The position numbers were made by a program, and so were the translations under genes. This document shows positions 202 through 55,412 of a stretch of DNA of 64,000 bases, in pieces. The notes under the pieces are model-generated. The model worked only from the letters and a program-made list of their open reading frames with translations. It did no database searches and had not been told where the DNA came from. The DNA comes from Diprion similis. Taxonomy: Eukaryota > Arthropoda > Insecta > Hymenoptera > Diprionidae. Numbering within the stretch: position 1 is the stretch's first letter; the number at the start of each line of letters is the position of its first letter. The DNA is taken from assembly GCF_021155765.1 (NCBI RefSeq), contig NC_060114.1:8985501-9049500 (forward strand), read 5' to 3'.

Positions 202-3200
202 TAATCGATTCCTCTCGCAAAATTACGTCGGAATAGTGCCTCAAGAAATTTATTGCAGCACTTTTCGAAATCGTCGAAATTTTCGCCAAAAATCGAAAGG
301 GGTTAGCCTTACTTTTTTGGTCATTTTCGGAGCCGAAAATTTCTCATCTCGGAATCGATTTGTATGACCTTCTCTAGAGTAATTCGACCCCCAGGAACTC
401 AAAAAACACAGCAAAACAAGCGTAGGACCAGCAGCAGAGAAATGGCGATGAAAATCATGCGTTTTTCGGCCGTAACTTTCCAGCTATCGCTCGCAGCGTA
501 TTGGGACTGCGCGTAATCGATTCCTCTCGCAAAATTACGTCGGAATAGTGCCTCAAGAAATTCATTGCAGCACTTTTCGAAATCGTCGAAATTTTCGCCA
601 AAAATCGAAAGGGGTTAGCCTTACTTTTTTGGTCATTTTCGGAGCCGAAAATTTCTCATCTCGGAATCGATTTGTATGACCTTCTCTAGAGTAATTCGAC
701 CCCCAGGAACTCAAAAAACACAGCAAAACAAGCGTAGGACCAGCAGCAGAGAAATGGCGATGAAAATCATGCGTTTTTCGGCCGTAACTTTCCAGCTATC
801 GCTCGCAGCGTATTGGGACTGCGCCTAATCGATTCCTCTCGCAAAATTACGTCGGAATAGTGCCTCAAGAAATTCATTGCAGCACTTTTCGGAATCGTCA
901 AAATTTTCGCCAAAAATCGAAAGGGGTTAGCCTTACTTTTTTGGTCATTTTCGGAGCCGAAAATTTCTCGTCTCGGAATCGATTTGTATGACCTTCTCTA
1001 GAGTGATTCGACCCCCAGGAACTCAAAAAACACAGCAAAACAAGCGTAGGACCAGCAGCAGAGAAATGGCGATGAAAATCATGCGTTTTTCGGCCGTAAC
1101 TTTCCAGCTATCGCTCGCAGCGTATTGGGACTGCGCCTAATCGATTCCTCTCGCAAAATTACGTCGGAATAGTGCCTCAAGGAATTCATTGCAGCACTCT
1201 TCGGAATCGTCAAAATTTTCGCCAAAAATCGAAAGGGGTTAGCCTTACTTTTTTGGTCATTTTCGGAGCCGAAAATTTCTCATCTCGGAATCGATTTGTA
1301 TGACCTTCTCTAGAGTAATTCGACCCCCAGGAACTCAAAAAACACAGCAAAACAAGCGTAGGACCAGCAGCAGAGAAATGGCGATGAAAATCATGCGTTT
1401 TTCGGCCGTAACTTTCCAGCTATCGCTCGCAGCGTATTGGAACTGCGCCTAATCGATTCCTCTCGCAAAATTACGTCGGAATAGTGCCTCAAGAAATTCA
1501 TTGCAGCACTTTTCGAAATCGTCAAAATTTTCGCCAAAAATCGAAAGGGGTTAGCCTTACTTTTTTGGTCATTTTCGGAGCCGAAAATTTCTCATCTCGG
1601 AATCGATTTGTATGACCTTCTCTAGAGTAATTCGACCCCTAGAAACTCAAAAAACACAGCAAAACAAGCGTAGGACCGGCAGCAGAGAAATGGCGATGAA
1701 AATCATGCGTTTTTCGGCCGTAACTTTCCAGCTATCGCTCGCAGCGTATTGGGACTGCGCCTAATCGATTCCTCTCGCAAAATTACGTGGGGATAGTGCC
1801 TCAAGAAATTCATTGCAGCACTTTTCGGAATCGTCAAAATTTTCGCCAAAAATCGAAAGGGGTTAGCCTTACTTTTTTGGTCATTTTCGGAGCTGAAAAT
1901 TTCTCGTCTCGGAATCGATTTGTATGACCTTCTCTAGAGTAATTCGACCCCCAGGAACTCAAAAAACACAGCAAAACAAGCGTAGGACCGGCAGCAGAGA
2001 AATGGCGATAACAATCATGCGTTTTTCGGCCGTAACTTTCCAGCTATCACTTGCAGCGTATTGGGACTGCGCCTAATCGATTCCTCTCGCAAAATTACGT
2101 CGGAATAGTGCCTCAAGAAATTCATTGCAGCACTTTTCGGAATCGTCAAAATTTTCGCCAAAAATCGAAAGGGGTTAGCCTTACTTTTTTGGTCATTTTC
2201 GGAGCCGAAAATTTCTCGTCTCGGAATCGATTTGTATGACCTTCTCTAGAGTAATTCGACCCCCAGGAACTCAAAAAACACAGCAAAACAAGCGTAGGAC
2301 CAGCAGCAGAGAAATGGCGATGAAAATCATGCGTTTTTCGGCCGTAACTTTCCAGCTATCGCTTGCAGCGTATTGGGACTGCGCCTAATCGATTCCTCTC
2401 GCAAAATTACGTCGGAATAGTGCCTCAAGAAATTCATTGCAGCACTTTTCGAAATCGTCAAAATTTTCGCCAAAAATCGAAAGGGGTTAGCCTTACTTTT
2501 TTGGTCATTTTCGGAGCCGAAAATTTCTCATCTCGGAATCGATTTGTATGACCTTCTCTAGAGTAATTCGACCCCCAGGAACTCAAAAAACACAGCAAAA
2601 CAAGCGTAGGACCAGCAGCAGAGAAATGGCGATGAAAATCATGCGTTTTTTGGCCGTAACTTTCCAGCTATCGCTCGCAGCGTATTGGGACTGCGCGTAA
2701 TCGATTCCTCTCGCAAAATTACGTCGGAATAGTGCCTCAAGAAATTTATTGCAGCACTTTTCGAAATCGTCGAAATTTTCGCCAAAAATCGAAAGGGGTT
2801 AGCCTTACTTTTTTGGTCATTTTCGGAGCCGAAAATTTCTCATCTCGGAATCGATTTGTATGACCTTCTCTAGAGTAATTCGACCCCCAGGAACTCAAAA
2901 AACACAGCAAAACAAGCGTAGGACCAGCAGCAGAGAAATGGCGATGAAAATCATGCGTTTTTTGGCCGTAACTTTCCAGCTATCGCTCGCAGCGTATTGG
3001 GACTGCGCCTAATCGATTCCTCTCGCAAAATTACGTCGGAATACTGCCTTGAGAAATTCATTGCAGCACTTTTCGGAATCGTCAAAATTTTCGCTAAAAA
3101 TCGAAAGGGGTTAGCCTTACTTTTTTTGTCATTTTCGGAGCCGAAAATTTCTCGTCTCGGAATCGATTTGTATGACCTTCTCTAGAGTAATTCGACCCCC

Positions 3201-6200
3201 AGGAACTCAAAAAACACAGCAAAACAAGCGTAGGACCAGCGGCAGAGAAATGGCGATGAAAATCATGCGTTTTTCGGCCGTAACTTTCCAGCTATCGCTC
3301 GCAGCGTATTGGGACTGCGCCTAATCGATTCCTCTCGCAAAATTACGTCGGAATAGTGCCTCAAGGAATTCATTGCAGCACTCTTCGGAATCGTCAAAAT
3401 TTTCGCCAAAAATCGAAAGGGGTTAGCCTTACTTTTTTGGTCATTTTCGGAGCCGAAAATTTCTCATCTCGGAATCGATTTGTATGACCTTCTCTAGAGT
3501 AATTCGACCCCCAGGAACTCAAAAAACACAGCAAAACAAGCGTAGGACCAGCAGCAGAGAAATGGCGATGAAAATCATGCGTTTTTCGGCCGTAACTTTC
3601 CAGCTATCGCTCGCAGCGTATTGGGACTGCGCCTAATCGATTCCTCTCGCAAAATTACGTCGGAATAGTGCCTCAAGAAATTCATTGCAGCACTTTTCGG
3701 AATCGTCAAAATTTTCGCCAAAAATCGAAAGGGGTTAGCCTTACTTTTTTGGTCATTTTCGGAGCCGAAAATTTCTCGTCTCGGAATCGATTTGTATGAC
3801 CTTCTCTAGAGTGATTCGACCCCCAGGAACTCAAAAAACACAGCAAAACAAGCGTAGGACCAGCAGCAGAGAAATGGCGATGAAAATCATGCGTTTTTCG
3901 GCCGTAACTTTCCAGCTATCGCTCGCAGCGTATTGGGACTGCGCCTAATCGATTCCTCTCGCAAAATTACGTCGGAATAGTGCCTCAAGGAATTCATTGC
4001 AGCACTCTTCGGAATCGTCAAAATTTTCGCCAAAAATCGAAAGGGGTTAGCCTTACTTTTTTGGTCATTTTCGGAGCCGAAAATTTCTCATCTCGGAATC
4101 GATTTGTATGACCTTCTCTAGAGTAATTCGACCCCCAGGAACTCAAAAAACACAGCACAACAAGCGTAGGACCAGCAGCAGAGAAATGGCGATGAAAATC
4201 ATGCGTTTTTCGGCCGTAACTTTCCAGCTATCGCTCGCAGCGTATTGGAACTGCGCCTAATCGATTCCTCTCGCAAAATTACGTCGGAATAGTGCCTCAA
4301 GAAATTCATTGCAGCACTTTTCGAAATCGTCAAAATTTTCGCCAAAAATCGAAAGGGGTTAGCCTTACTTTTTTGGTCATTTTCGGAGCCGAAAATTTCT
4401 CATCTCGGAATCGATTTGTATGACCTTCTCTAGAGTAATTCGACCCCCAGGAACTCAAAAAACACAGCAAAACAAGCGTAGGACCAGCAGCAGAGAAATG
4501 GCGATAAAAATCATGCGTTTTTCGGCCGTAACTTTCCAGCTATCGCTCGCAGCGTATTGGGACTGCGCCTAATCGATTCCTCTCGCAAAATTACGTCGGA
4601 ATAGTGCCTCAAGAAATTCATTGCAGCACTTTTCGGAATCGTCAAAATTTTCGCCAAAAATCGAAAGGGGTTAGCCTTACTTTTTTGGTCATTTTCGGAG
4701 CCGAAAATTTCTCGTCTCGGAATCGATTTGTATGACCTTCTCTAGAGTAATTCGACCCCCAGGAACTCAAAAAACACAGCAAAACAAGCGTAGGACCAGC
4801 AGCAGAGAAATGGCGATGAAAATCATGCGTTTTTCGGCCGTAACTTTCCAGCTATCGCTCGCAGCGTATTGGGACTGCGCCTAATCGATTCCTCTCGCAA
4901 AATTACGTCGGAATAGTGCCTCAAGAAATTCATTGCAGCACTTTTCGGAATCGTCAAAATTTTCGCCAAAAATCGAAAGGGGTTAGCCTTACTTTTTTGG
5001 TCATTTTCGGAGCCGAAAATTTCTCATCTCGGAATCGATTTGTATGACCTTCTCTAGAGTAATTCGACCCCCAGGAACTCAAAAAACACAGCAAAACAAG
5101 CGTAGGACCAGCAGCAGAGAAATGGCGATGAAAATCATGCGTTTTTCGGCCGTAACTTTCCAGCTATCGCTCGCAGCGTATTGGGACTGCGCCTAATCGA
5201 TTCCTCTCGCAAAATTACGTCGGAATAGTGCCTCAAGAAATTCATTGCAGCACTTTTCGGAATCGTCAAAATTTTCGCCAAAAATCGAAAGGGGTTAGCC
5301 TTACTTTTTTGGTCATTTTCGGAGCCGAAAATTTCTCGTCTCGGAATCGATTTGTATGACCTTCTCTAGAGTGATTCGACCCCCAGGAACTCAAAAAACA
5401 CAGCAAAACAAGCGTAGGACCAGCAGCAGAGAAATGGCGATGAAAATCATGCGTTTTTCGGCCGTAACTTTCCAGCTATCGCTCGCAGCGTATTGGGACT
5501 GCGCCTAATCGATTCCTCTCGCAAAATTACGTCGGAATAGTGCCTCAAGAAATTCATTGCAGCACTTTTCGGAATCGTCAAAATTTTCGCCAAAAATCGA
5601 AAGGGGTTAGCCTTACTTTTTTGGTCATTTTCGGAGCCGAAAATTTCTCGTCTCGGAATCGATTTGTATGACCTTCTCTAGAGTGATTCGACCCCCAGGA
5701 ACTCAAAAAACACAGCAAAACAAGCGTAGGACCAGCAGCAGAGAAATGGCAATGAAAATCATGCGTTTTTCGGCCGTAACTTTCCAGCTATCGCTCGCAG
5801 CGTATTGGGACTGCGCCTAATCGATTCCTCTCGCAAAATTACGTCGGAATAGTGCCTTGAGAAATTTATTGCAGCACTTTTTGGAATCGTCAAAATTTTC
5901 GCTAAAAATCGAAAGGGGTTAGCCTTACTTTTTTTGTCATTTTCGGAGCCGAAAATTTCTCGTCTCGGAATCGATTTGTATGACCTTCTCTAGAGTAATT
6001 CGACCCCCAGGAACTCAAAAAACACAGCAAAACAAGCGTAGGACCAGCAGCAGAGAAATGGCGATAAAAATCATGCGTTTTTCGGCCGTAACTTTCCAGC
6101 TATCGCTCGCAGCGTATTGGGACTGCGCCTAATCGATTCCTCTCGCAAAATTACGTCGGAATAGTGCCTCAAGAAATTCATTGCAGCACTTTTCGGAATC

Positions 6201-9200
6201 GTCAAAATTTTCGCCAAAAATCGAAAGGGGTTAGCCTTACTTTTTTGGTCATTTTCGGAGCCGAAAATTTCTCGTCTCGGAATCGATTTGTATGACCTTC
6301 TCTAGAGTAATTCGACCCCCAGGAACTCAAAAAACACAGCAAAACAAGCGTAGGACCGGCAGCAGAGAAATGGCGATGAAAAACATGCGTTTTTCGGCCG
6401 TAACTTTCCAGCTATCGCTTGCAGCGTATTGGGACTGCGCCTAATCGATTCCTCTCGCAAAATTACGTCGGAATAGTGCCTCAAGAAATTCATTGCAGCA
6501 CTTTTCGGAATCGTCAAAATTTTCGCCAAAACTCGAAAGGGGTTAGCCTTACTTTTTTGGTCATTTTCGGAGCCGAAAATTTCTCGTCTCGGAATCGATT
6601 TGTATGACCTTCTCTAGAGTAATTCGACCCCCAGGAACTCAAAAAACACAGCAAAACAAGCGTAGGACCAGCAGCAGAGAAATGGCGATGAAAATCATGC
6701 GTTTTTCGGCCGTCACTTCCCAGCTATCGCTCGCAGCGTATTGGGACTGCGCCTAATCGATTCCTGTCGCAAAATTACGTCGGAATAGTGCCTTGAGAAA
6801 TTCATTGCAGCACTTTTCGGAATCGTCAAAATTTTCGCCAAAAATCGAAAGGGGTTAGCCTTACTTTTTTTGTCATTTTCGGAGCCGAAAATTTCTCGTC
6901 TCGGAATCGATTTGTATGACCTTCTCCAGAGTAATTCGACCCCCAGGAACTCAAAAAACACAGCAAAACAAGCGTAGGACCAGCAGCAGAGAAATGGCGA
7001 TGAAAATCATGCGTTTTTCGGCCGTAACTTTCCAGCTATCGCTCGCAGCGTATTGGGACTGCGCCTAATCGATTCCTCTCGCAAAATTACGTCGGAATAG
7101 TGCCTTGAGAAATTCATTGCAGCACTTTTCGGAATCGTCAAAATTTTCGCTAAAAATCGAAAGGGGTTAGCCTTACTTTTTTGGTCATTTTCGGAGCCAA
7201 AAATTTCTCGTCTCGGAATCGATTTGTATGACCTTCTCTAGAGTAATTCGACCCCCAGGAACTCAAAAAACACAGCAAAACAAGCGTAGGATCAGCAGCA
7301 GAGAAATGGCGATGAAAATCATGCGTTTTTCGGCCGTAATTTTCCAGCTATCGCTCGCAGCGTATTGGGACTGCGCCGAATCGATTCCTCCCGCAAAATT
7401 ACGTCGGAATAGTGCCTCAAGAAATTCATTGCAGCACTTTTCGAAATCGTCAAAATTTTCGCCAAAAATCGAAAGGGGTTAGCCTTACTTTTTTGGTCAT
7501 TTTCGGAGCCGAAAATTTCTCATCTCGGAATCGATTTGTATGACCTTCACTGGAGTAATTCGACCCCCAGGAACTCAAAAAACACAGCAAAACAAGCGTA
7601 GGACCAGCAGCAGAGAAATGGCGATGAAAATCATGCGTTTTTTGGCCGTAACTTTCCAGCTATCGCTCGCAGCGTATTGTGACTGCGCGTAATCGATTCC
7701 TCTCGCAAAATTACGTCGGAATAGTGCCTCAAGAAATTCATTGCAGCATTTTTCGGATTCGTCGAAATTTTCGCCAAAAATCCATAGGGGTTAGCCTTAC
7801 TTTTTTGGTCATTTTCGGAGCAAAAAATTTCTCATCTCGGAATCGATTTGGATGACCATCTCTAGAGTAATTCGACCCCCAGGAACTCAAAAAACACAGC
7901 AAAACAAGTGTAGGACCAGCAGCAGAGAAATGGCGATGAAAATCATGCGTTTTTCGGCCGTAACTTTCCAGCTATCGCTCGCAGCGTATTGGAACTGCGC
8001 CTAATCGATTCCTCTCGCAAAATTACGTCGGAATAGTGCCTCAAGAAATTCATTGCAGCACTTTTCGAAATCGTCAAAATTTTCGCCAAAAATCGAAAGG
8101 GGTTAGCCTTACTTTTTTGGTCATTTTCGAAGCCGAAAATTTCTCATCTCGGAATCGATTTGTATGACCTTCTCTAGAGTAATTCGACCCCTAGAAACTC
8201 AAAAAACACAGCAAAACAAGCGTAGGACCGGCAGCAGAGAAATGGCGATGAAAATCATGCGTTTTTCGGCCGTAACTTTCCAGCTATCGCTCGCAGCGTA
8301 TTGGGACTGCGCCTAATCGATTCCTCTCGCAAAATTACGTCGGAATAGTGCCTCAAGAAATTCATTGCAGCACTTTTCGGAATCGTCAAAATTTTCGCCA
8401 AAAATCGAAAGGGGTTAGCCTTACTTTTTTGGTCATTTTCGGAGCCGAAAATTTCTCGTCTCGGAATTGATTTGTATGACCTTCTCTAGAGTAATTCGAC
8501 CCCCAGGAACTCAAAAAACACAGCAAAACAAGCGTAGGACCAGCAGCAGAGAAATGGCGATGAAAATCATGCGTTTTTCGGCCGTAACTTTTCAGCTATC
8601 GCTCGCAGCGTATTGGGACTGCGCCTAATCGATTCCTCTCGCAAAATTACGTCGGAATAGTGCCTCAAGAAATTCATTGCAGCACTTTTCGGAATCGTCA
8701 AAATTTTCGCCAAAAATCGAAAGGGGTTAGCCTTACTTTTTTGGTCATTTTCGGAGCCGAAAATTTCTCGTCTCGGAATCGATTTGTATGACCTTCTCTA
8801 GAGTGATTCGACCCCCAGGAACTCAAAAAACACAGCAAAACAAGCGTAGGACCAGCAGCAGAGAAATGGCGATGAAAATCATGCGTTTTTCGGCCGTAAC
8901 TTTCCAGCTATCGCTCGCAGCGTATTGGGACTGCGCCTAATCGATTCCTCTCGCAAAATTACGTCGGAATAGTGCCTCAAGAAATTCATTGCAGCACTTT
9001 TCGGAATCGTCAAAATTTTCGCCAAAAATCGAAAGGGGTTAGCCTTACTTTTTTGGTCATTTTCGGAGCCGAAAATTTCTCGTCTCGGAATCGATTTGTA
9101 TGACCTTCTCTAGAGTGATTCGACCCCCAGGAACTCAAAAAACACAGCAAAACAAGCGTAGGACCAGCAGCAGAGAAATGGCAATGAAAATCATGCGTTT

Positions 9201-12200
9201 TTCGGCCGTAACTTTCCAGCTATCGCTCGCAGCGTATTGGGACTGCGCCTAATCGATTCCTCTCGCAAAATTACGTCGGAATAGTGCCTTGAGAAATTCA
9301 TTGCAGCACTTTTCGGAATCGTCAAAATTTTCGCTAAAAATCGAAAGGGGTTAGCCTTACTTTTTTTGTCATTTTCGGAGTCGAAAATCTCTCGTCTCGG
9401 AATCGATTTGTATGACCTTCTCTAGAGTAATTCGACCCCCAGGAACTCAAAAAACACAGCAAAACAAGCGTAGGACCAGCAGCAGAGAAATGGCGATAAA
9501 AATCATGCGTTTTTCGGCCGTAACTTTCCAGCTATCGCTCGCAGCGTATTGGGACTGCGCCTAATCGATTCCTCTCGCAAAATTACGTCGGAATAGTGCC
9601 TCAAGAAATTCATTGCAGCACTTTTCGGAATCGTCAAAATTTTCGCCAAAAATCGAAAGGGGTTAGCCTTACTTTTTTGGTCATTTTCGGAGCCGAAAAT
9701 TTCTCGTCTCGGAATCGATTTGTATGACCTTCTCTAGAGTGATTCGACCCCCAGGAACTCAAAAAACACAGCAAAACAAGCGTAGGACCAGCAGCAGAGA
9801 AATGGCGATGAAAATCATGCGTTTTTCGGCCGTAACTTTCCAGCTATCGCTCGCAGCGTATTGGGACTGCGCCTAATCGATTCCTCTCGCAAAATTACGT
9901 CGGAATAGTGCCTCAAGAAATTCATTGCAGCACTTTTCGGAATCGTCAAAATTTTCGCCAAAAATCGAAAGGGGTTAGCCTTACTTTTTTGGTCATTTTC
10001 GGAGCCGAAAATTTCTCGTCTCGGAATCGATTTGTATGACCTTCTCTAGAGTGATTCGACCCCCAGGAACTCAAAAAACACAGCAAAACAAGCGTAGGAC
10101 CAGCAGCAGAGAAATGGCAATGAAAATCATGCGTTTTTCGGCCGTAACTTTCCAGCTATCGCTCGCAGCGTATTGGGACTGCGCCTAATCGATTCCTCTC
10201 GCAAAATTACGTCGGAATAGTGCCTTGAGAAATTTATTGCAGCACTTTTTGGAATCGTCAAAATTTTCGCTAAAAATCGAAAGGGGTTAGCCTTACTTTT
10301 TTTGTCATTTTCGGAGCCGAAAATTTCTCGTCTCGGAATCGATTTGTATGACCTTCTCTAGAGTAATTCGACCCCCAGGAACTCAAAAAACACAGCAAAA
10401 CAAGCGTAGGACCAGCAGCAGAGAAATGGCGATAAAAATCATGCGTTTTTCGGCCGTAACTTTCCAGCTATCGCTCGCAGCGTATTGGGACTGCGCCTAA
10501 TCGATTCCTCTCGCAAAATTACGTCGGAATAGTGCCTCAAGAAATTCATTGCAGCACTTTTCGGAATCGTCAAAATTTTCGCCAAAAATCGAAAGGGGTT
10601 AGCCTTACTTTTTTGGTCATTTTCGGAGCCGAAAATTTCTCGTCTCGGAATCGATTTGTATGACCTTCTCTAGAGTAATTCGACCCCCAGGAACTCAAAA
10701 AACACAGCAAAACAAGCGTAGGACCGGCAGCAGAGAAATGGCGATGAAAAACATGCGTTTTTCGGCCGTAACTTTCCAGCTATCGCTTGCAGCGTATTGG
10801 GACTGCGCCTAATCGATTCCTCTCGCAAAATTACGTCGGAATAGTGCCTCAAGAAATTCATTGCAGCACTTTTCGGAATCGTCAAAATTTTCGCCAAAAC
10901 TCGAAAGGGGTTAGCCTTACTTTTTTGGTCATTTTCGGAGCCGAAAATTTCTCGTCTCGGAATCGATTTGTATGACCTTCTCTAGAGTAATTCGACCCCC
11001 AGGAACTCAAAAAACACAGCAAAACAAGCGTAGGACCAGCAGCAGAGAAATGGCGATGAAAATCATGCGTTTTTCGGCCGTCACTTCCCAGCTATCGCTC
11101 GCAGCGTATTGGGACTGCGCCTAATCGATTCCTGTCGCAAAATTACGTCGGAATAGTGCCTTGAGAAATTCATTGCAGCACTTTTCGGAATCGTCAAAAT
11201 TTTCGCCAAAAATCGAAAGGGGTTAGCCTTACTTTTTTTGTCATTTTCGGAGCCGAAAATTTCTCGTCTCGGAATCGATTTGTATGACCTTCTCCAGAGT
11301 AATTCGACCCCCAGGAACTCAAAAAACACAGCAAAACAAGCGTAGGACCAGCAGCAGAGAAATGGCGATGAAAATCATGCGTTTTTCGGCCGTAACTTTC
11401 CAGCTATCGCTCGCAGCGTATTGGGACTGCGCCTAATCGATTCCTCTCGCAAAATTACGTCGGAATAGTGCCTTGAGAAATTCATTGCAGCACTTTTCGG
11501 AATCGTCAAAATTTTCGCTAAAAATCGAAAGGGGTTAGCCTTACTTTTTTGGTCATTTTCGGAGCCAAAAATTTCTCGTCTCGGAATCGATTTGTATGAC
11601 CTTCTCTAGAGTAATTCGACCCCCAGGAACTCAAAAAACACAGCAAAACAAGCGTAGGATCAGCAGCAGAGAAATGGCGATGAAAATCATGCGTTTTTCG
11701 GCCGTAATTTTCCAGCTATCGCTCGCAGCGTATTGGGACTGCGCCGAATCGATTCCTCCCGCAAAATTACGTCGGAATAGTGCCTCAAGAAATTCATTGC
11801 AGCACTTTTCGAAATCGTCAAAATTTTCGCCAAAAATCGAAAGGGGTTAGCCTTACTTTTTTGGTCATTTTCGGAGCCGAAAATTTCTCATCTCGGAATC
11901 GATTTGTATGACCTTCACTGGAGTAATTCGACCCCCAGGAACTCAAAAAACACAGCAAAACAAGCGTAGGACCAGCAGCAGAGAAATGGCGATGAAAATC
12001 ATGCGTTTTTTGGCCGTAACTTTCCAGCTATCGCTCGCAGCGTATTGTGACTGCGCGTAATCGATTCCTCTCGCAAAATTACGTCGGAATAGTGCCTCAA
12101 GAAATTCATTGCAGCATTTTTCGGATTCGTCGAAATTTTCGCCAAAAATCCATAGGGGTTAGCCTTACTTTTTTGGTCATTTTCGGAGCAAAAAATTTCT

Positions 12201-12681
12201 CATCTCGGAATCGATTTGGATGACCATCTCTAGAGTAATTCGACCCCCAGGAACTCAAAAAACACAGCAAAACAAGTGTAGGACCAGCAGCAGAGAAATG
12301 GCGATGAAAATCATGCGTTTTTCGGCCGTAACTTTCCAGCTATCGCTCGCAGCGTATTGGAACTGCGCCTAATCGATTCCTCTCGCAAAATTACGTCGGA
12401 ATAGTGCCTCAAGAAATTCATTGCAGCACTTTTCGAAATCGTCAAAATTTTCGCCAAAAATCGAAAGGGGTTAGCCTTACTTTTTTGGTCATTTTCGAAG
12501 CCGAAAATTTCTCATCTCGGAATCGATTTGTATGACCTTCTCTAGAGTAATTCGACCCCTAGAAACTCAAAAAACACAGCAAAACAAGCGTAGGACCGGC
12601 AGCAGAGAAATGGCGATGAAAATCATGCGTTTTTCGGCCGTAACTTTCCAGCTATCGCTCGCAGCGTATTGGGACTGCGCC
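202..12681. repeat. Higher-order repeat unit, copy A (40 monomers, 12,480 bp)
   Basis: Monomer variants recur with a period of 12,480 bp, which is exactly 40 x 312. The match begins right after position 201 (g here, c at 12,681) and runs base for base against 12,682 onwards. Private variants are shared at this offset, for example GGGGATAGTG near 1,790 and 14,270, GCACAACAAGCG near 4,155 and 16,635, and a GATAACAATC variant near 2,010 and 14,490. Copy A contains the internal 14-monomer duplication listed separately. Confidence 0.9.
5131..8362. repeat. Nested 3,232-bp satellite block, first copy in unit A
   Basis: This block recurs at +4,368 bp (14 x 312) as 9,499-12,730. Limits are set by mismatches at 5,130/9,498 (g/a) and 8,363/12,731 (c/t). 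It carries several rare variants: GGCAATG, GCCAAAACTCG, TCACTTCCC and the AGCAAAAAATTT monomer near 7,820. It recurs again in unit B (17,611-20,842). Confidence 0.88.
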
Positions 12682-12730
12682 TAATCGATTCCTCTCGCAA
12701 AATTACGTCGGAATAGTGCCTCAAGAAATT
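9499..12730. repeat. Nested 3,232-bp satellite block, second copy in unit A
   Basis: This matches 5,131-8,362 at an offset of 4,368 bp through all the private variants I checked. The corresponding copy in unit B starts at 21,979 but is cut at 23,846, where the higher-order copy itself ends. Confidence 0.87.
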
Positions 12731-15700
12731 TATTGCAGCACTTTTCGAAATCGTCGAAATTTTCGCCAAAAATCGAAAGGGGTTAGCCTTACTTTTTTGG
12801 TCATTTTCGGAGCCGAAAATTTCTCATCTCGGAATCGATTTGTATGACCTTCTCTAGAGTAATTCGACCCCCAGGAACTCAAAAAACACAGCAAAACAAG
12901 CGTAGGACCAGCAGCAGAGAAATGGCGATGAAAATCATGCGTTTTTCGGCCGTAACTTTCCAGCTATCGCTCGCAGCGTATTGGGACTGCGCGTAATCGA
13001 TTCCTCTCGCAAAATTACGTCGGAATAGTGCCTCAAGAAATTCATTGCAGCACTTTTCGAAATCGTCGAAATTTTCGCCAAAAATCGAAAGGGGTTAGCC
13101 TTACTTTTTTGGTCATTTTCGGAGCCGAAAATTTCTCATCTCGGAATCGATTTGTATGACCTTCTCTAGAGTAATTCGACCCCCAGGAACTCAAAAAACA
13201 CAGCAAAACAAGCGTAGGACCAGCAGCAGAGAAATGGCGATGAAAATCATGCGTTTTTCGGCCGTAACTTTCCAGCTATCGCTCGCAGCGTATTGGGACT
13301 GCGCCTAATCGATTCCTCTCGCAAAATTACGTCGGAATAGTGCCTCAAGAAATTCATTGCAGCACTTTTCGGAATCGTCAAAATTTTCGCCAAAAATCGA
13401 AAGGGGTTAGCCTTACTTTTTTGGTCATTTTCGGAGCCGAAAATTTCTCGTCTCGGAATCGATTTGTATGACCTTCTCTAGAGTGATTCGACCCCCAGGA
13501 ACTCAAAAAACACAGCAAAACAAGCGTAGGACCAGCAGCAGAGAAATGGCGATGAAAATCATGCGTTTTTCGGCCGTAACTTTCCAGCTATCGCTCGCAG
13601 CGTATTGGGACTGCGCCTAATCGATTCCTCTCGCAAAATTACGTCGGAATAGTGCCTCAAGGAATTCATTGCAGCACTCTTCGGAATCGTCAAAATTTTC
13701 GCCAAAAATCGAAAGGGGTTAGCCTTACTTTTTTGGTCATTTTCGGAGCCGAAAATTTCTCATCTCGGAATCGATTTGTATGACCTTCTCTAGAGTAATT
13801 CGACCCCCAGGAACTCAAAAAACACAGCAAAACAAGCGTAGGACCAGCAGCAGAGAAATGGCGATGAAAATCATGCGTTTTTCGGCCGTAACTTTCCAGC
13901 TATCGCTCGCAGCGTATTGGAACTGCGCCTAATCGATTCCTCTCGCAAAATTACGTCGGAATAGTGCCTCAAGAAATTCATTGCAGCACTTTTCGAAATC
14001 GTCAAAATTTTCGCCAAAAATCGAAAGGGGTTAGCCTTACTTTTTTGGTCATTTTCGGAGCCGAAAATTTCTCATCTCGGAATCGATTTGTATGACCTTC
14101 TCTAGAGTAATTCGACCCCTAGAAACTCAAAAAACACAGCAAAACAAGCGTAGGACCGGCAGCAGAGAAATGGCGATGAAAATCATGCGTTTTTCGGCCG
14201 TAACTTTCCAGCTATCGCTCGCAGCGTATTGGGACTGCGCCTAATCGATTCCTCTCGCAAAATTACGTGGGGATAGTGCCTCAAGAAATTCATTGCAGCA
14301 CTTTTCGGAATCGTCAAAATTTTCGCCAAAAATCGAAAGGGGTTAGCCTTACTTTTTTGGTCATTTTCGGAGCTGAAAATTTCTCGTCTCGGAATCGATT
14401 TGTATGACCTTCTCTAGAGTAATTCGACCCCCAGGAACTCAAAAAACACAGCAAAACAAGCGTAGGACCGGCAGCAGAGAAATGGCGATAACAATCATGC
14501 GTTTTTCGGCCGTAACTTTCCAGCTATCACTTGCAGCGTATTGGGACTGCGCCTAATCGATTCCTCTCGCAAAATTACGTCGGAATAGTGCCTCAAGAAA
14601 TTCATTGCAGCACTTTTCGGAATCGTCAAAATTTTCGCCAAAAATCGAAAGGGGTTAGCCTTACTTTTTTGGTCATTTTCGGAGCCGAAAATTTCTCGTC
14701 TCGGAATCGATTTGTATGACCTTCTCTAGAGTAATTCGACCCCCAGGAACTCAAAAAACACAGCAAAACAAGCGTAGGACCAGCAGCAGAGAAATGGCGA
14801 TGAAAATCATGCGTTTTTCGGCCGTAACTTTCCAGCTATCGCTTGCAGCGTATTGGGACTGCGCCTAATCGATTCCTCTCGCAAAATTACGTCGGAATAG
14901 TGCCTCAAGAAATTCATTGCAGCACTTTTCGAAATCGTCAAAATTTTCGCCAAAAATCGAAAGGGGTTAGCCTTACTTTTTTGGTCATTTTCGGAGCCGA
15001 AAATTTCTCATCTCGGAATCGATTTGTATGACCTTCTCTAGAGTAATTCGACCCCCAGGAACTCAAAAAACACAGCAAAACAAGCGTAGGACCAGCAGCA
15101 GAGAAATGGCGATGAAAATCATGCGTTTTTTGGCCGTAACTTTCCAGCTATCGCTCGCAGCGTATTGGGACTGCGCGTAATCGATTCCTCTCGCAAAATT
15201 ACGTCGGAATAGTGCCTCAAGAAATTTATTGCAGCACTTTTCGAAATCGTCGAAATTTTCGCCAAAAATCGAAAGGGGTTACCCTTACTTTTTTGGTCAT
15301 TTTCGGAGCCGAAAATTTCTCATCTCGGAATCGATTTGTATGACCTTCTCTAGAGTAATTCGACCCCCAGGAACTCAAAAAACACAGCAAAACAAGCGTA
15401 GGACCAGCAGCAGAGAAATGGCGATGAAAATCATGCGTTTTTTGGCCGTAACTTTCCAGCTATCGCTCGCAGCGTATTGGGACTGCGCCTAATCGATTCC
15501 TCTCGCAAAATTACGTCGGAATACTGCCTTGAGAAATTCATTGCAGCACTTTTCGGAATCGTCAAAATTTTCGCTAAAAATCGAAAGGGGTTAGCCTTAC
15601 TTTTTTTGTCATTTTCGGAGCCGAAAATTTCTCGTCTCGGAATCGATTTGTATGACCTTCTCTAGAGTAATTCGACCCCCAGGAACTCAAAAAACACAGC

Positions 15701-18700
15701 AAAACAAGCGTAGGACCAGCGGCAGAGAAATGGCGATGAAAATCATGCGTTTTTCGGCCGTAACTTTCCAGCTATCGCTCGCAGCGTATTGGGACTGCGC
15801 CTAATCGATTCCTCTCGCAAAATTACGTCGGAATAGTGCCTCAAGGAATTCATTGCAGCACTCTTCGGAATCGTCAAAATTTTCGCCAAAAATCGAAAGG
15901 GGTTAGCCTTACTTTTTTGGTCATTTTCGGAGCCGAAAATTTCTCATCTCGGAATCGATTTGTATGACCTTCTCTAGAGTAATTCGACCCCCAGGAACTC
16001 AAAAAACACAGCAAAACAAGCGTAGGACCAGCAGCAGAGAAATGGCGATGAAAATCATGCGTTTTTCGGCCGTAACTTTCCAGCTATCGCTCGCAGCGTA
16101 TTGGGACTGCGCCTAATCGATTCCTCTCGCAAAATTACGTCGGAATAGTGCCTCAAGAAATTCATTGCAGCACTTTTCGGAATCGTCAAAATTTTCGCCA
16201 AAAATCGAAAGGGGTTAGCCTTACTTTTTTGGTCATTTTCGGAGCCGAAAATTTCTCGTCTCGGAATCGATTTGTATGACCTTCTCTAGAGTGATTCGAC
16301 CCCCAGGAACTCAAAAAACACAGCAAAACAAGCGTAGGACCAGCAGCAGAGAAATGGCGATGAAAATCATGCGTTTTTCGGCCGTAACTTTCCAGCTATC
16401 GCTCGCAGCGTATTGGGACTGCGCCTAATCGATTCCTCTCGCAAAATTACGTCGGAATAGTGCCTCAAGGAATTCATTGCAGCACTCTTCGGAATCGTCA
16501 AAATTTTCGCCAAAAATCGAAAGGGGTTAGCCTTACTTTTTTGGTCATTTTCGGAGCCGAAAATTTCTCATCTCGGAATCGATTTGTATGACCTTCTCTA
16601 GAGTAATTCGACCCCCAGGAACTCAAAAAACACAGCACAACAAGCGTAGGACCAGCAGCAGAGAAATGGCGATGAAAATCATGCGTTTTTCGGCCGTAAC
16701 TTTCCAGCTATCGCTCGCAGCGTATTGGAACTGCGCCTAATCGATTCCTCTCGCAAAATTACGTCGGAATAGTGCCTCAAGAAATTCATTGCAGCACTTT
16801 TCGAAATCGTCAAAATTTTCGCCAAAAATCGAAAGGGGTTAGCCTTACTTTTTTGGTCATTTTCGGAGCCGAAAATTTCTCATCTCGGAATCGATTTGTA
16901 TGACCTTCTCTAGAGTAATTCGACCCCCAGGAACTCAAAAAACACAGCAAAACAAGCGTAGGACCAGCAGCAGAGAAATGGCGATAAAAATCATGCGTTT
17001 TTCGGCCGTAACTTTCCAGCTATCGCTCGCAGCGTATTGGGACTGCGCCTAATCGATTCCTCTCGCAAAATTACGTCGGAATAGTGCCTCAAGAAATTCA
17101 TTGCAGCACTTTTCGGAATCGTCAAAATTTTCGCCAAAAATCGAAAGGGGTTAGCCTTACTTTTTTGGTCATTTTCGGAGCCGAAAATTTCTCGTCTCGG
17201 AATCGATTTGTATGACCTTCTCTAGAGTAATTCGACCCCCAGGAACTCAAAAAACACAGCAAAACAAGCGTAGGACCAGCAGCAGAGAAATGGCGATGAA
17301 AATCATGCGTTTTTCGGCCGTAACTTTCCAGCTATCGCTCGCAGCGTATTGGGACTGCGCCTAATCGATTCCTCTCGCAAAATTACGTCGGAATAGTGCC
17401 TCAAGAAATTCATTGCAGCACTTTTCGGAATCGTCAAAATTTTCGCCAAAAATCGAAAGGGGTTAGCCTTACTTTTTTGGTCATTTTCGGAGCCGAAAAT
17501 TTCTCATCTCGGAATCGATTTGTATGACCTTCTCTAGAGTAATTCGACCCCCAGGAACTCAAAAAACACAGCAAAACAAGCGTAGGACCAGCAGCAGAGA
17601 AATGGCGATGAAAATCATGCGTTTTTCGGCCGTAACTTTCCAGCTATCGCTCGCAGCGTATTGGGACTGCGCCTAATCGATTCCTCTCGCAAAATTACGT
17701 CGGAATAGTGCCTCAAGAAATTCATTGCAGCACTTTTCGGAATCGTCAAAATTTTCGCCAAAAATCGAAAGGGGTTAGCCTTACTTTTTTGGTCATTTTC
17801 GGAGCCGAAAATTTCTCGTCTCGGAATCGATTTGTATGACCTTCTCTAGAGTGATTCGACCCCCAGGAACTCAAAAAACACAGCAAAACAAGCGTAGGAC
17901 CAGCAGCAGAGAAATGGCGATGAAAATCATGCGTTTTTCGGCCGTAACTTTCCAGCTATCGCTCGCAGCGTATTGGGACTGCGCCTAATCGATTCCTCTC
18001 GCAAAATTACGTCGGAATAGTGCCTCAAGAAATTCATTGCAGCACTTTTCGGAATCGTCAAAATTTTCGCCAAAAATCGAAAGGGGTTAGCCTTACTTTT
18101 TTGGTCATTTTCGGAGCCGAAAATTTCTCGTCTCGGAATCGATTTGTATGACCTTCTCTAGAGTGATTCGACCCCCAGGAACTCAAAAAACACAGCAAAA
18201 CAAGCGTAGGACCAGCAGCAGAGAAATGGCAATGAAAATCATGCGTTTTTCGGCCGTAACTTTCCAGCTATCGCTCGCAGCGTATTGGGACTGCGCCTAA
18301 TCGATTCCTCTCGCAAAATTACGTCGGAATAGTGCCTTGAGAAATTTATTGCAGCACTTTTTGGAATCGTCAAAATTTTCGCTAAAAATCGAAAGGGGTT
18401 AGCCTTACTTTTTTTGTCATTTTCGGAGCCGAAAATTTCTCGTCTCGGAATCGATTTGTATGACCTTCTCTAGAGTAATTCGACCCCCAGGAACTCAAAA
18501 AACACAGCAAAACAAGCGTAGGACCAGCAGCAGAGAAATGGCGATAAAAATCATGCGTTTTTCGGCCGTAACTTTCCAGCTATCGCTCGCAGCGTATTGG
18601 GACTGCGCCTAATCGATTCCTCTCGCAAAATTACGTCGGAATAGTGCCTCAAGAAATTCATTGCAGCACTTTTCGGAATCGTCAAAATTTTCGCCAAAAA

Positions 18701-21700
18701 TCGAAAGGGGTTAGCCTTACTTTTTTGGTCATTTTCGGAGCCGAAAATTTCTCGTCTCGGAATCGATTTGTATGACCTTCTCTAGAGTAATTCGACCCCC
18801 AGGAACTCAAAAAACACAGCAAAACAAGCGTAGGACCGGCAGCAGAGAAATGGCGATGAAAAACATGCGTTTTTCGGCCGTAACTTTCCAGCTATCGCTT
18901 GCAGCGTATTGGGACTGCGCCTAATCGATTCCTCTCGCAAAATTACGTCGGAATAGTGCCTCAAGAAATTCATTGCAGCACTTTTCGGAATCGTCAAAAT
19001 TTTCGCCAAAACTCGAAAGGGGTTAGCCTTACTTTTTTGGTCATTTTCGGAGCCGAAAATTTCTCGTCTCGGAATCGATTTGTATGACCTTCTCTAGAGT
19101 AATTCGACCCCCAGGAACTCAAAAAACACAGCAAAACAAGCGTAGGACCAGCAGCAGAGAAATGGCGATGAAAATCATGCGTTTTTCGGCCGTCACTTCC
19201 CAGCTATCGCTCGCAGCGTATTGGGACTGCGCCTAATCGATTCCTGTCGCAAAATTACGTCGGAATAGTGCCTTGAGAAATTCATTGCAGCACTTTTCGG
19301 AATCGTCAAAATTTTCGCCAAAAATCGAAAGGGGTTAGCCTTACTTTTTTTGTCATTTTCGGAGCCGAAAATTTCTCGTCTCGGAATCGATTTGTATGAC
19401 CTTCTCCAGAGTAATTCGACCCCCAGGAACTCAAAAAACACAGCAAAACAAGCGTAGGACCAGCAGCAGAGAAATGGCGATGAAAATCATGCGTTTTTCG
19501 GCCGTAACTTTCCAGCTATCGCTCGCAGCGTATTGGGACTGCGCCTAATCGATTCCTCTCGCAAAATTACGTCGGAATAGTGCCTTGAGAAATTCATTGC
19601 AGCACTTTTCGGAATCGTCAAAATTTTCGCTAAAAATCGAAAGGGGTTAGCCTTACTTTTTTGGTCATTTTCGGAGCCAAAAATTTCTCGTCTCGGAATC
19701 GATTTGTATGACCTTCTCTAGAGTAATTCGACCCCCAGGAACTCAAAAAACACAGCAAAACAAGCGTAGGATCAGCAGCAGAGAAATGGCGATGAAAATC
19801 ATGCGTTTTTCGGCCGTAATTTTCCAGCTATCGCTCGCAGCGTATTGGGACTGCGCCGAATCGATTCCTCCCGCAAAATTACGTCGGAATAGTGCCTCAA
19901 GAAATTCATTGCAGCACTTTTCGAAATCGTCAAAATTTTCGCCAAAAATCGAAAGGGGTTAGCCTTACTTTTTTGGTCATTTTCGGAGCCGAAAATTTCT
20001 CATCTCGGAATCGATTTGTATGACCTTCACTGGAGTAATTCGACCCCCAGGAACTCAAAAAACACAGCAAAACAAGCGTAGGACCAGCAGCAGAGAAATG
20101 GCGATGAAAATCATGCGTTTTTTGGCCGTAACTTTCCAGCTATCGCTCGCAGCGTATTGTGACTGCGCGTAATCGATTCCTCTCGCAAAATTACGTCGGA
20201 ATAGTGCCTCAAGAAATTCATTGCAGCATTTTTCGGATTCGTCGAAATTTTCGCCAAAAATCCATAGGGGTTAGCCTTACTTTTTTGGTCATTTTCGGAG
20301 CAAAAAATTTCTCATCTCGGAATCGATTTGGATGACCATCTCTAGAGTAATTCGACCCCCAGGAACTCAAAAAACACAGCAAAACAAGTGTAGGACCAGC
20401 AGCAGAGAAATGGCGATGAAAATCATGCGTTTTTCGGCCGTAACTTTCCAGCTATCGCTCGCAGCGTATTGGAACTGCGCCTAATCGATTCCTCTCGCAA
20501 AATTACGTCGGAATAGTGCCTCAAGAAATTCATTGCAGCACTTTTCGAAATCGTCAAAATTTTCGCCAAAAATCGAAAGGGGTTAGCCTTACTTTTTTGG
20601 TCATTTTCGAAGCCGAAAATTTCTCATCTCGGAATCGATTTGTATGACCTTCTCTAGAGTAATTCGACCCCTAGAAACTCAAAAAACACAGCAAAACAAG
20701 CGTAGGACCGGCAGCAGAGAAATGGCGATGAAAATCATGCGTTTTTCGGCCGTAACTTTCCAGCTATCGCTCGCAGCGTATTGGGACTGCGCCTAATCGA
20801 TTCCTCTCGCAAAATTACGTCGGAATAGTGCCTCAAGAAATTCATTGCAGCACTTTTCGGAATCGTCAAAATTTTCGCCAAAAATCGAAAGGGGTTAGCC
20901 TTACTTTTTTGGTCATTTTCGGAGCCGAAAATTTCTCGTCTCGGAATTGATTTGTATGACCTTCTCTAGAGTAATTCGACCCCCAGGAACTCAAAAAACA
21001 CAGCAAAACAAGCGTAGGACCAGCAGCAGAGAAATGGCGATGAAAATCATGCGTTTTTCGGCCGTAACTTTTCAGCTATCGCTCGCAGCGTATTGGGACT
21101 GCGCCTAATCGATTCCTCTCGCAAAATTACGTCGGAATAGTGCCTCAAGAAATTCATTGCAGCACTTTTCGGAATCGTCAAAATTTTCGCCAAAAATCGA
21201 AAGGGGTTAGCCTTACTTTTTTGGTCATTTTCGGAGCCGAAAATTTCTCGTCTCGGAATCGATTTGTATGACCTTCTCTAGAGTGATTCGACCCCCAGGA
21301 ACTCAAAAAACACAGCAAAACAAGCGTAGGACCAGCAGCAGAGAAATGGCGATGAAAATCATGCGTTTTTCGGCCGTAACTTTCCAGCTATCGCTCGCAG
21401 CGTATTGGGACTGCGCCTAATCGATTCCTCTCGCAAAATTACGTCGGAATAGTGCCTCAAGAAATTCATTGCAGCACTTTTCGGAATCGTCAAAATTTTC
21501 GCCAAAAATCGAAAGGGGTTAGCCTTACTTTTTTGGTCATTTTCGGAGCCGAAAATTTCTCGTCTCGGAATCGATTTGTATGACCTTCTCTAGAGTGATT
21601 CGACCCCCAGGAACTCAAAAAACACAGCAAAACAAGCGTAGGACCAGCAGCAGAGAAATGGCAATGAAAATCATGCGTTTTTCGGCCGTAACTTTCCAGC

Positions 21701-23846
21701 TATCGCTCGCAGCGTATTGGGACTGCGCCTAATCGATTCCTCTCGCAAAATTACGTCGGAATAGTGCCTTGAGAAATTCATTGCAGCACTTTTCGGAATC
21801 GTCAAAATTTTCGCTAAAAATCGAAAGGGGTTAGCCTTACTTTTTTTGTCATTTTCGGAGTCGAAAATCTCTCGTCTCGGAATCGATTTGTATGACCTTC
21901 TCTAGAGTAATTCGACCCCCAGGAACTCAAAAAACACAGCAAAACAAGCGTAGGACCAGCAGCAGAGAAATGGCGATAAAAATCATGCGTTTTTCGGCCG
22001 TAACTTTCCAGCTATCGCTCGCAGCGTATTGGGACTGCGCCTAATCGATTCCTCTCGCAAAATTACGTCGGAATAGTGCCTCAAGAAATTCATTGCAGCA
22101 CTTTTCGGAATCGTCAAAATTTTCGCCAAAAATCGAAAGGGGTTAGCCTTACTTTTTTGGTCATTTTCGGAGCCGAAAATTTCTCGTCTCGGAATCGATT
22201 TGTATGACCTTCTCTAGAGTGATTCGACCCCCAGGAACTCAAAAAACACAGCAAAACAAGCGTAGGACCAGCAGCAGAGAAATGGCGATGAAAATCATGC
22301 GTTTTTCGGCCGTAACTTTCCAGCTATCGCTCGCAGCGTATTGGGACTGCGCCTAATCGATTCCTCTCGCAAAATTACGTCGGAATAGTGCCTCAAGAAA
22401 TTCATTGCAGCACTTTTCGGAATCGTCAAAATTTTCGCCAAAAATCGAAAGGGGTTAGCCTTACTTTTTTGGTCATTTTCGGAGCCGAAAATTTCTCGTC
22501 TCGGAATCGATTTGTATGACCTTCTCTAGAGTGATTCGACCCCCAGGAACTCAAAAAACACAGCAAAACAAGCGTAGGACCAGCAGCAGAGAAATGGCAA
22601 TGAAAATCATGCGTTTTTCGGCCGTAACTTTCCAGCTATCGCTCGCAGCGTATTGGGACTGCGCCTAATCGATTCCTCTCGCAAAATTACGTCGGAATAG
22701 TGCCTTGAGAAATTTATTGCAGCACTTTTTGGAATCGTCAAAATTTTCGCTAAAAATCGAAAGGGGTTAGCCTTACTTTTTTTGTCATTTTCGGAGCCGA
22801 AAATTTCTCGTCTCGGAATCGATTTGTATGACCTTCTCTAGAGTAATTCGACCCCCAGGAACTCAAAAAACACAGCAAAACAAGCGTAGGACCAGCAGCA
22901 GAGAAATGGCGATAAAAATCATGCGTTTTTCGGCCGTAACTTTCCAGCTATCGCTCGCAGCGTATTGGGACTGCGCCTAATCGATTCCTCTCGCAAAATT
23001 ACGTCGGAATAGTGCCTCAAGAAATTCATTGCAGCACTTTTCGGAATCGTCAAAATTTTCGCCAAAAATCGAAAGGGGTTAGCCTTACTTTTTTGGTCAT
23101 TTTCGGAGCCGAAAATTTCTCGTCTCGGAATCGATTTGTATGACCTTCTCTAGAGTAATTCGACCCCCAGGAACTCAAAAAACACAGCAAAACAAGCGTA
23201 GGACCGGCAGCAGAGAAATGGCGATGAAAAACATGCGTTTTTCGGCCGTAACTTTCCAGCTATCGCTTGCAGCGTATTGGGACTGCGCCTAATCGATTCC
23301 TCTCGCAAAATTACGTCGGAATAGTGCCTCAAGAAATTCATTGCAGCACTTTTCGGAATCGTCAAAATTTTCGCCAAAACTCGAAAGGGGTTAGCCTTAC
23401 TTTTTTGGTCATTTTCGGAGCCGAAAATTTCTCGTCTCGGAATCGATTTGTATGACCTTCTCTAGAGTAATTCGACCCCCAGGAACTCAAAAAACACAGC
23501 AAAACAAGCGTAGGACCAGCAGCAGAGAAATGGCGATGAAAATCATGCGTTTTTCGGCCGTCACTTCCCAGCTATCGCTCGCAGCGTATTGGGACTGCGC
23601 CTAATCGATTCCTGTCGCAAAATTACGTCGGAATAGTGCCTTGAGAAATTCATTGCAGCACTTTTCGGAATCGTCAAAATTTTCGCCAAAAATCGAAAGG
23701 GGTTAGCCTTACTTTTTTTGTCATTTTCGGAGCCGAAAATTTCTCGTCTCGGAATCGATTTGTATGACCTTCTCCAGAGTAATTCGACCCCCAGGAACTC
23801 AAAAAACACAGCAAAACAAGCGTAGGACCAGCAGCAGAGAAATGGC
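12682..23846. repeat. Higher-order repeat unit, copy B (truncated at 11,165 bp)
   Basis: This is near-identical to 202-11,366. The only mismatch I noted is c at 15,282 against g at 2,802. The match breaks at 23,847 (a, against g at 11,367). From there the array continues with monomers resembling those 2,184 bp (7 monomers) upstream (compare 21,661 onwards), so the copy ends at an apparent recombination breakpoint about 1.3 kb short of full length. Confidence 0.88.
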
Positions 23847-32500: not shown

Positions 32501-32987
32501 TGACATATACCGGAGTGATTCGACCACCAGGAACTCAGAAAACACATCAAAAAGAGCGTAGGGCCAGCAGCAGAGAAATGGCGATGAAAATCATGAGTTT
32601 TCCGGCCGTAACTTTTCAGCTATCGCTCGCAGCGTATTGGGACTGCGCTCAATCGATTCCTCTCGCAAATTTACGTCGAAATAGTGCCTCAAAGAATTGA
32701 TTGTAGCATTTTTCGAAATCGTCAAAATTTTCGCTAAAAATCCAAAGGGGTTAGCCTTACTTTTTTGGTCACTTTCGGAGTCAAAAATTTCTTCACTTTG
32801 AATCGATATCTACAACCCTCTCTAGGTTAATTGCATTCCACTGAACTCAGAGAATACAGCAAAAAGTGCTTGGAAACATCGGCAGAGCGATTACGACTAA
32901 AAGATCAGCAGCATTAGAATGGTCAAACGAACGTTTTGTTTTTCGGCCGTAACTCTTGAACCGCTGCTCGCAGCATATTCGGACTGG
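32501..32987. repeat. Degenerate terminal satellite monomers at the array edge
   Basis: From about 32,500 the monomers accumulate many substitutions (TGACATATACCGGAGTG, CACATCAAAAAGAGCG). The final unit, starting at 32,761, also carries an extra stretch of roughly 30-35 bp (around 32,885-32,925, GATTACGACTAAAAGATCAG). Recognisable satellite ends near 32,987 in CAGCATATTCGGACTGG, about two thirds through a monomer. This is the true proximal boundary of the array. Confidence 0.85.

Positions 32988-48559: not shown

Positions 48560-55412
<6,853 letters not shown>

Follow-up and report, generated by a model that had tools for sequence, protein, structure and literature searches.

Does the 312-bp satellite of the hymenopteran Diprion similis build a higher-order repeat (HOR) of 40 monomers, or does its appearance have a simpler origin? 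The question is raised by a window of 64,000 nucleotides, a term that designates here the whole stretch of DNA analysed (C10:8985501-9049500, where C10 is contig NC_060114.1 of assembly GCF_021155765.1; the genome has 269 Mb in 60 contigs). Positions given without a contig name are those of the window. Tandem Repeats Finder (TRF) identified in it an array of 105.1 tandem copies of a 312-bp monomer (Table 1). A preliminary description of the sequence had read two nearly identical stretches of this array as successive copies of a 40-monomer unit organised like primate alpha satellite. The locus is very probably an ordinary multi-locus satellite array, homogenised internally by out-of-register recombination, in which a single large block was recently duplicated. 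By which exact path this happened is less certain than that it was a one-off recent event. Papers cited below by their PMC numbers are drawn on for selected passages.

The duplication consists of two blocks, U and U', that agree over 11,165 bp at an offset of 12,480 bp (40 × 312 bp) with a single mismatch (G at position 2802, C at 15282). The tract is bounded by mismatches at positions 201 and 11367. The coordinates, length and lone mismatch reported in the preliminary description were thus exact, and the large, very recent block amplification that it proposed finds support. Stretches of 11,165 bp compared at other offsets within the same array (2,000 overlapping placements starting every 624 bp, with offsets that were multiples of 312 and offset 40 excluded) differed at no fewer than 168 positions, with a median of 281, so that the match between the two blocks is far from chance. 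The mean pairwise identity of monomers in this array is 97.1%, corresponding to a divergence of about 3%. Outside the block, identity at the 40-monomer offset is 97.5% over -6600 to 201 and 96.0% over 11367-20384, the comparison partner of the latter segment reaching the decayed right edge of the array.

The copied block does not fill its period. U spans 35.8 monomers (35 of them full) and is 1,315 bp shorter than 12,480 bp, which is at variance with the 40-monomer unit proposed initially. The remaining 1,315 bp are occupied by a filler, S, which is identical without any mismatch to 6999-8313 in copy 1 and to 19479-20793 in copy 2 (exact string identity and best-match scan). The layout is therefore U-S-U', with S copying an inner part of U. 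Other sequence follows copy 2: over its 1,315 bp, segment 23847-25161 differs at 13 positions from its closest counterpart elsewhere in the array. The entire 40.2-kb array was read and carries a single tract at offset 40, with no third copy of the block on either side and a copy count of 1.9 at this register.

These features bear directly on the possibility of a true HOR, in which a 40-monomer unit was amplified as such and two copies were left or assembled. Such a unit would account for a register identity (one mismatch in 11,165 bp) far above the monomer identity of the array, and the pair corresponds to the loose HOR of the TRASH program, a pair of matching blocks of at least three monomers (PMC10199239); the 35 full monomers found here with one mismatch in all fall under the wording of this definition. 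A true HOR is nevertheless very unlikely, given that the array has no third copy, that the block is shorter than the period and its filler copies another part of the block, and that a tract of at least 1 kb at this offset is absent from three of the four other arrays described below, those long enough to show one. A regular 40-monomer HOR was rejected on the first two grounds.

Comparison with primate alpha satellite leads to the same point. The likeness lies in a very long, multi-monomer block whose copies are far more alike than the monomers inside it. The copies do not, however, stand head to tail over the whole unit, and they number fewer than three. In the 33mer of primate alpha satellite on chromosome 21, four complete copies stand in register, with monomers 19% and copies 5% divergent (PMC6718397), and a 34mer is mentioned for the Y chromosome (PMC8997354); here there are 1.9 copies, about 3% divergence between monomers and 0.01% between copies, a filler taken from another part of the block, and an array that is centromeric by no marker tested. 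The analogy with alpha satellite is thus not sustained. The preliminary description had also considered such organisation rarely described in insects and unusually long. As to the first point, HORs are mentioned for Tribolium castaneum (PMC7598501, PMC5844308), for Chrysolina as dimers and trimers (PMC8122249) and for Drosophila Rsp as dimers (PMC12871663); the second would stand if this were a HOR, as none near 40 monomers was found for an insect in the passages of the literature searched.

An older duplication inside the block gives access to the junctions. X and X' are identical over 3,232 bp at an offset of 14 monomers. The pair has its full length in copy 1, while in copy 2 only its first 1,868 bp match (21979-23846), a shortening which implies that the first junction lies at or before position 11366. 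At the start of U', the 49 bp at 12682-12730 match both 8314-8362 and 202-250. The tract ends at 201/202 (offset 40) and at 12730/12731 (offset 14) therefore bracket one and the same 49-bp interval.

In the path that we propose, the ancestral array would have carried U followed directly by the sequence that now starts at 23847. A break or crossover within 9499-11366 of X' would have engaged the identical 1,868 bp of X (5131-6998), 14 monomers upstream, and copying would have continued from 6999, inside X, to about 8313; this places the first junction within 1,868 bp of perfect homology. The second junction, inside the 49-bp identical stretch, would have jumped back to position 202, after which U was presumably copied again in full and down into 23847, for a net gain of 12,480 bp, or 40 monomers. 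The route may have been two unequal sister-chromatid exchanges or one event of break-induced replication with a template switch. Models of both kinds are described in a review (PMC8997354). The 40-monomer spacing would need neither selection nor function. Rice's break-induced replication model of nested HORs, treated in the same review, resembles the present case in that out-of-register re-initiation yields nested block copies such as U-S-U'; it differs in having been made for kinetochore-bearing arrays.

Further arrays of the satellite were read from C10 (31 kb of C10a, whose left end was not reached), C3 (40 kb), C2 (20 kb) and C1 (10 kb). C10a (C10:8785501-8816853) is at least 31.4 kb long, and 161 kb separate it from the window's array. 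All five arrays contain near-exact block copies that reach 1 kb or more, in a scan that included offsets near and off the multiples of 312: eight such tracts in the window's array (offsets 12 and 26 among them), 12 in C10a, nine in C3 and one each in C2 and C1. The longest tract has an offset of 8 monomers in C1 (3,066 bp, no mismatch), of 12 in C2 (3,143 bp, two mismatches) and of 17 in C10a (3,111 bp, two mismatches; its further offsets include 6, 10 and 34). In C3 it extends over C3:2539730-2549501, 9,772 bp at an offset of 31 monomers (9,672 bp) without a mismatch, and is cleaner than that of the window. This tract is longer than its offset, as expected of a plain tandem doubling. A HOR period common to the arrays was rejected, the longest-tract offset differing from array to array (8, 12, 17, 31 and 40 monomers; C1, C2 and C10a were read in part). 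No tract of at least 1 kb at the 40-monomer offset was found in C10a, C3 or C2, and the 10 kb of C1 are too short to show one. A common higher-order unit was likewise not found in the five arrays sampled, three of them only in part.

Monomers are more alike within an array than between arrays, with mean pairwise identities of 95.8-98.0% and 89.1-91.7%, respectively. These values come from at most 800 random pairs per comparison among monomers of exactly 312 bp between anchors (125 from the window's array, 99 from C10a, 63 from C3, where 20 kb were used, 63 from C2 and 31 from C1). The window's array and C10a share a contig and are 90.8% identical, a value within the range of pairs from different contigs; identities of the window's array to its remaining partners are slightly lower (89.1-90.4%). 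Since identity within arrays exceeds identity between them, homogenisation acts mostly array by array. Sproul et al. 2020 reportedly found arrays of the Drosophila 1.688 satellite to be more homogenised within than between. The family has the attributes of satellite DNA, namely monomers of one length placed head to tail in long arrays, and many loci under concerted evolution; the behaviour of the arrays is ordinary satellite turnover, finely recorded.

A different path would begin with a single unequal crossover that duplicated 40 monomers in plain tandem, after which 11367-12681 would have undergone gene conversion with 6999-8313 of copy 1 as the donor. It would produce the same letters, S being an exact copy of that donor, and the doubling in C3 indicates that plain tandem duplications happen in this satellite. 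The conversion tract would have to end by chance within the very 49 bp that hold the duplication junction, which makes this path rather unlikely. It keeps the principal claim of one recent block duplication and differs in the path alone. The meeting of the offset-14 and offset-40 tract ends in the same 49 bp is the reason why we prefer a compound event over a later, unrelated gene conversion.

Several observations weigh against our interpretation. The copy number of two rests on the assembly. Plain duplication with gene conversion leaves almost the same layout, and the two junctions may have arisen in one event or generations apart. Some of the lesser offsets, moreover, are shared by two arrays: C1 and C10a both have 8, while the window's array has 12 in common with C2 and 26 in common with C3. 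We take this as probable coincidence among small numbers.

Dependence on the assembly raises the possibility that one true block was written twice. At 11.2 kb on C10 and 9.8 kb on C3, the doubled blocks might correspond to a common long-read length. On the other hand, neither the 264 kb of C10 searched nor the fetched arrays contain an N, and the copies differ by a substitution private to copy 2. At the differing site, 126 of the 127 monomer positions checked have G and solely position 15282 has C, so that the change either arose in copy 2, after the duplication, or reflects an error of the consensus. The flanks of the two copies differ by 2.5-4%, and an artefact would need reads backing two distinct junctions. 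C3 in turn has its own doubling of a different length. Assemblers collapse such repeats more often than they expand them. The usual signs of false duplication (a gap, identical flanks, lack of private differences) were not found here, and the chance of an assembly artefact is small enough for us to call it quite unlikely.

The duplication is young on any plausible rate. With a hymenopteran substitution rate of 3.5 × 10−9 per site per generation, one substitution in 11,165 bp corresponds to about 12,800 generations (Poisson 95% interval 320-71,000). A striking "40-monomer higher-order repeat" can be the trace of local and recent recombination and not an organised unit. With its sharp, nearly unmutated junctions (intervals of 1,868 bp and 49 bp), the locus can serve, together with the doubling in C3, as a record of satellite array growth. 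A bolder idea, possible but somewhat doubtful, is that U-S-U' may be the almost unmutated footprint of a single break-induced replication event with template switching, outside any centromere, and that the same process, to which the 31-monomer doubling of C3 would belong, may generate steps of about 10 kb in many arrays. This would mean that kinetochores are not needed for the process that builds HORs.

The local HORs of Arabidopsis CEN178 analysed with TRASH are comparable to the arrays described here in their same-strand block pairs with many, overlapping offsets (PMC10199239). They differ in lying at the centromere with monomers of 178 bp, while those of D. similis have 312-bp monomers, extend over tens of kb where seen and, in the window, stand beside genes. 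One family at many places, some of them near genes, is also the situation of the euchromatic arrays of other insects, Drosophila 1.688 and Rsp-like (PMC7919458; 1.688 also PMC5844308) and Tribolium TCAST (PMC5844308). A literature search, whose wider part was judged by titles and the beginnings of abstracts, found no published 312-bp satellite of Hymenoptera. A search of the available paper texts for three words of 17 bases from the monomer, each in both orientations, gave no match; sequences are seldom printed there, so that this says little about a prior description.

A 34-base core of the monomer has 5,232 matches in the genome with up to 3 mismatches, while its reversed control has none. 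If each match equals one monomer, the satellite amounts to about 1.6 Mb, or about 0.6% of the genome. Among the matches listed, it occupies at least about 21 places on eight contigs (Table 1), and at least two places on seven of them (C1, C2, C3, C6, C8, C10 and C12). The places were grouped by eye, in some cases from a single copy or a few copies; their number is a lower bound. Satellite copies are also seen at C10:22302815-22315912, some 0.25 Mb short of the end of this 22.56-Mb contig.

In favour of a centromeric satellite with functional higher-order structure, the arrays are loosely grouped on some contigs (C10 8.07-9.31 Mb; C2 8.06-10.14 Mb). The multiple places on seven of eight contigs, with others among the matches listed at 22.3 Mb of C10, at 0.39 Mb of C7 and at 1.65, 4.52 and 10.35 Mb of C1, do not suggest a single centromeric block on each chromosome, though some clusters may be pericentromeric. 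The window's array is, moreover, 40 kb long, and an esterase-like exon begins some 2.6 kb beyond its right edge. The consensus monomer has no CENP-B-box match, which is of little weight in an insect. A functional centromeric structure of this kind is very unlikely.

Table 1. Features of the 312-bp satellite in the window, and its places on the contigs of the assembly.
Feature	Position	Strand	Basis
312-bp satellite array, part in the window	1-32792	+	TRF; monomer BLAST over 264 kb of C10
Block U, copy 1 (11,165 bp, 35.8 monomers)	202-11366	+	Offset-12,480 comparison
S, 1,315-bp filler between the copies	11367-12681	+	Exact string identity; best-match scan
Block U', copy 2 (differs from copy 1 at one site)	12682-23846	+	Offset-12,480 comparison
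Differing site, G	2802	+	Monomer-position comparison, 126/127
Differing site, C	15282	+	Monomer-position comparison, 1/127
X, member of the 14-monomer-offset pair	5131-8362	+	Exact 3,232-bp tract
X', exact copy of X	9499-12730	+	Exact 3,232-bp tract
Interval of the proposed junction 2 (49 bp)	12682-12730	+	String match; mismatch lists
Right edge, decaying monomers, the outermost with an extra stretch	32338-32986	+	Identity to array consensus
Places on C1	1.65, 4.52, 10.35 Mb		Among the matches listed
Places on C2	8.06, 8.34, 9.63, 10.12 Mb		Among the matches listed
Places on C3	2.54, 2.71 Mb		Among the matches listed
Places on C6	7.93, 19.54 Mb		Among the matches listed
Place on C7	0.39 Mb		Among the matches listed
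Places on C8	7.70, 14.82 Mb		Among the matches listed
Places on C10	8.07, 8.79, 8.98, 9.30, 22.31 Mb (of 22.56)		Among the matches listed
Places on C12	17.22, 17.50 Mb		Among the matches listed

The whole array of the window extends over C10:8978134-9018364, approximately -7366 to 32864 in window coordinates; both ends were reached by BLAST with one monomer over 264 kb. In its core, edge slots aside, monomers are 95-100% identical to the array consensus. Identity to this consensus decays over two to three monomers at the edges, from 93% to 80% and 69% on the right and with values of 85%, 78% and 68-71% on the left. On either side, some edge monomers (at 32651-32986 and roughly 7.6-6.7 kb to the left of position 1) carry some 30 additional bp near consensus positions 225-259, similar at the two ends, apparently an older and longer form of the monomer. 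The consensus monomer has a CpG observed/expected ratio of 1.49. No sub-period was found in it, and its best dyad is a perfect one of 8 bp (arms of 8-39 bp and loops below 30 searched).

The segment 35538-64000 is the gene-bearing flank of the array. Six of the eight open frames to the right of the array that were scanned against Pfam had a match and two had none. The matches are a carboxylesterase exon at 35.5 kb (- strand; the esterase-like exon mentioned above), an insect cuticle protein exon at 45.7 kb (+ strand), V-type ATPase subunit A in three pieces at 51.4-55.0 kb (+ strand) and a WW domain protein at 57.7 kb (- strand), which may resemble SETD2. The cuticle protein match is in keeping with an insect, as are the TTAGG repeats that run from base 5 of contig C1. 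A short TCCTT microsatellite of nine copies is found at 49338-49383.

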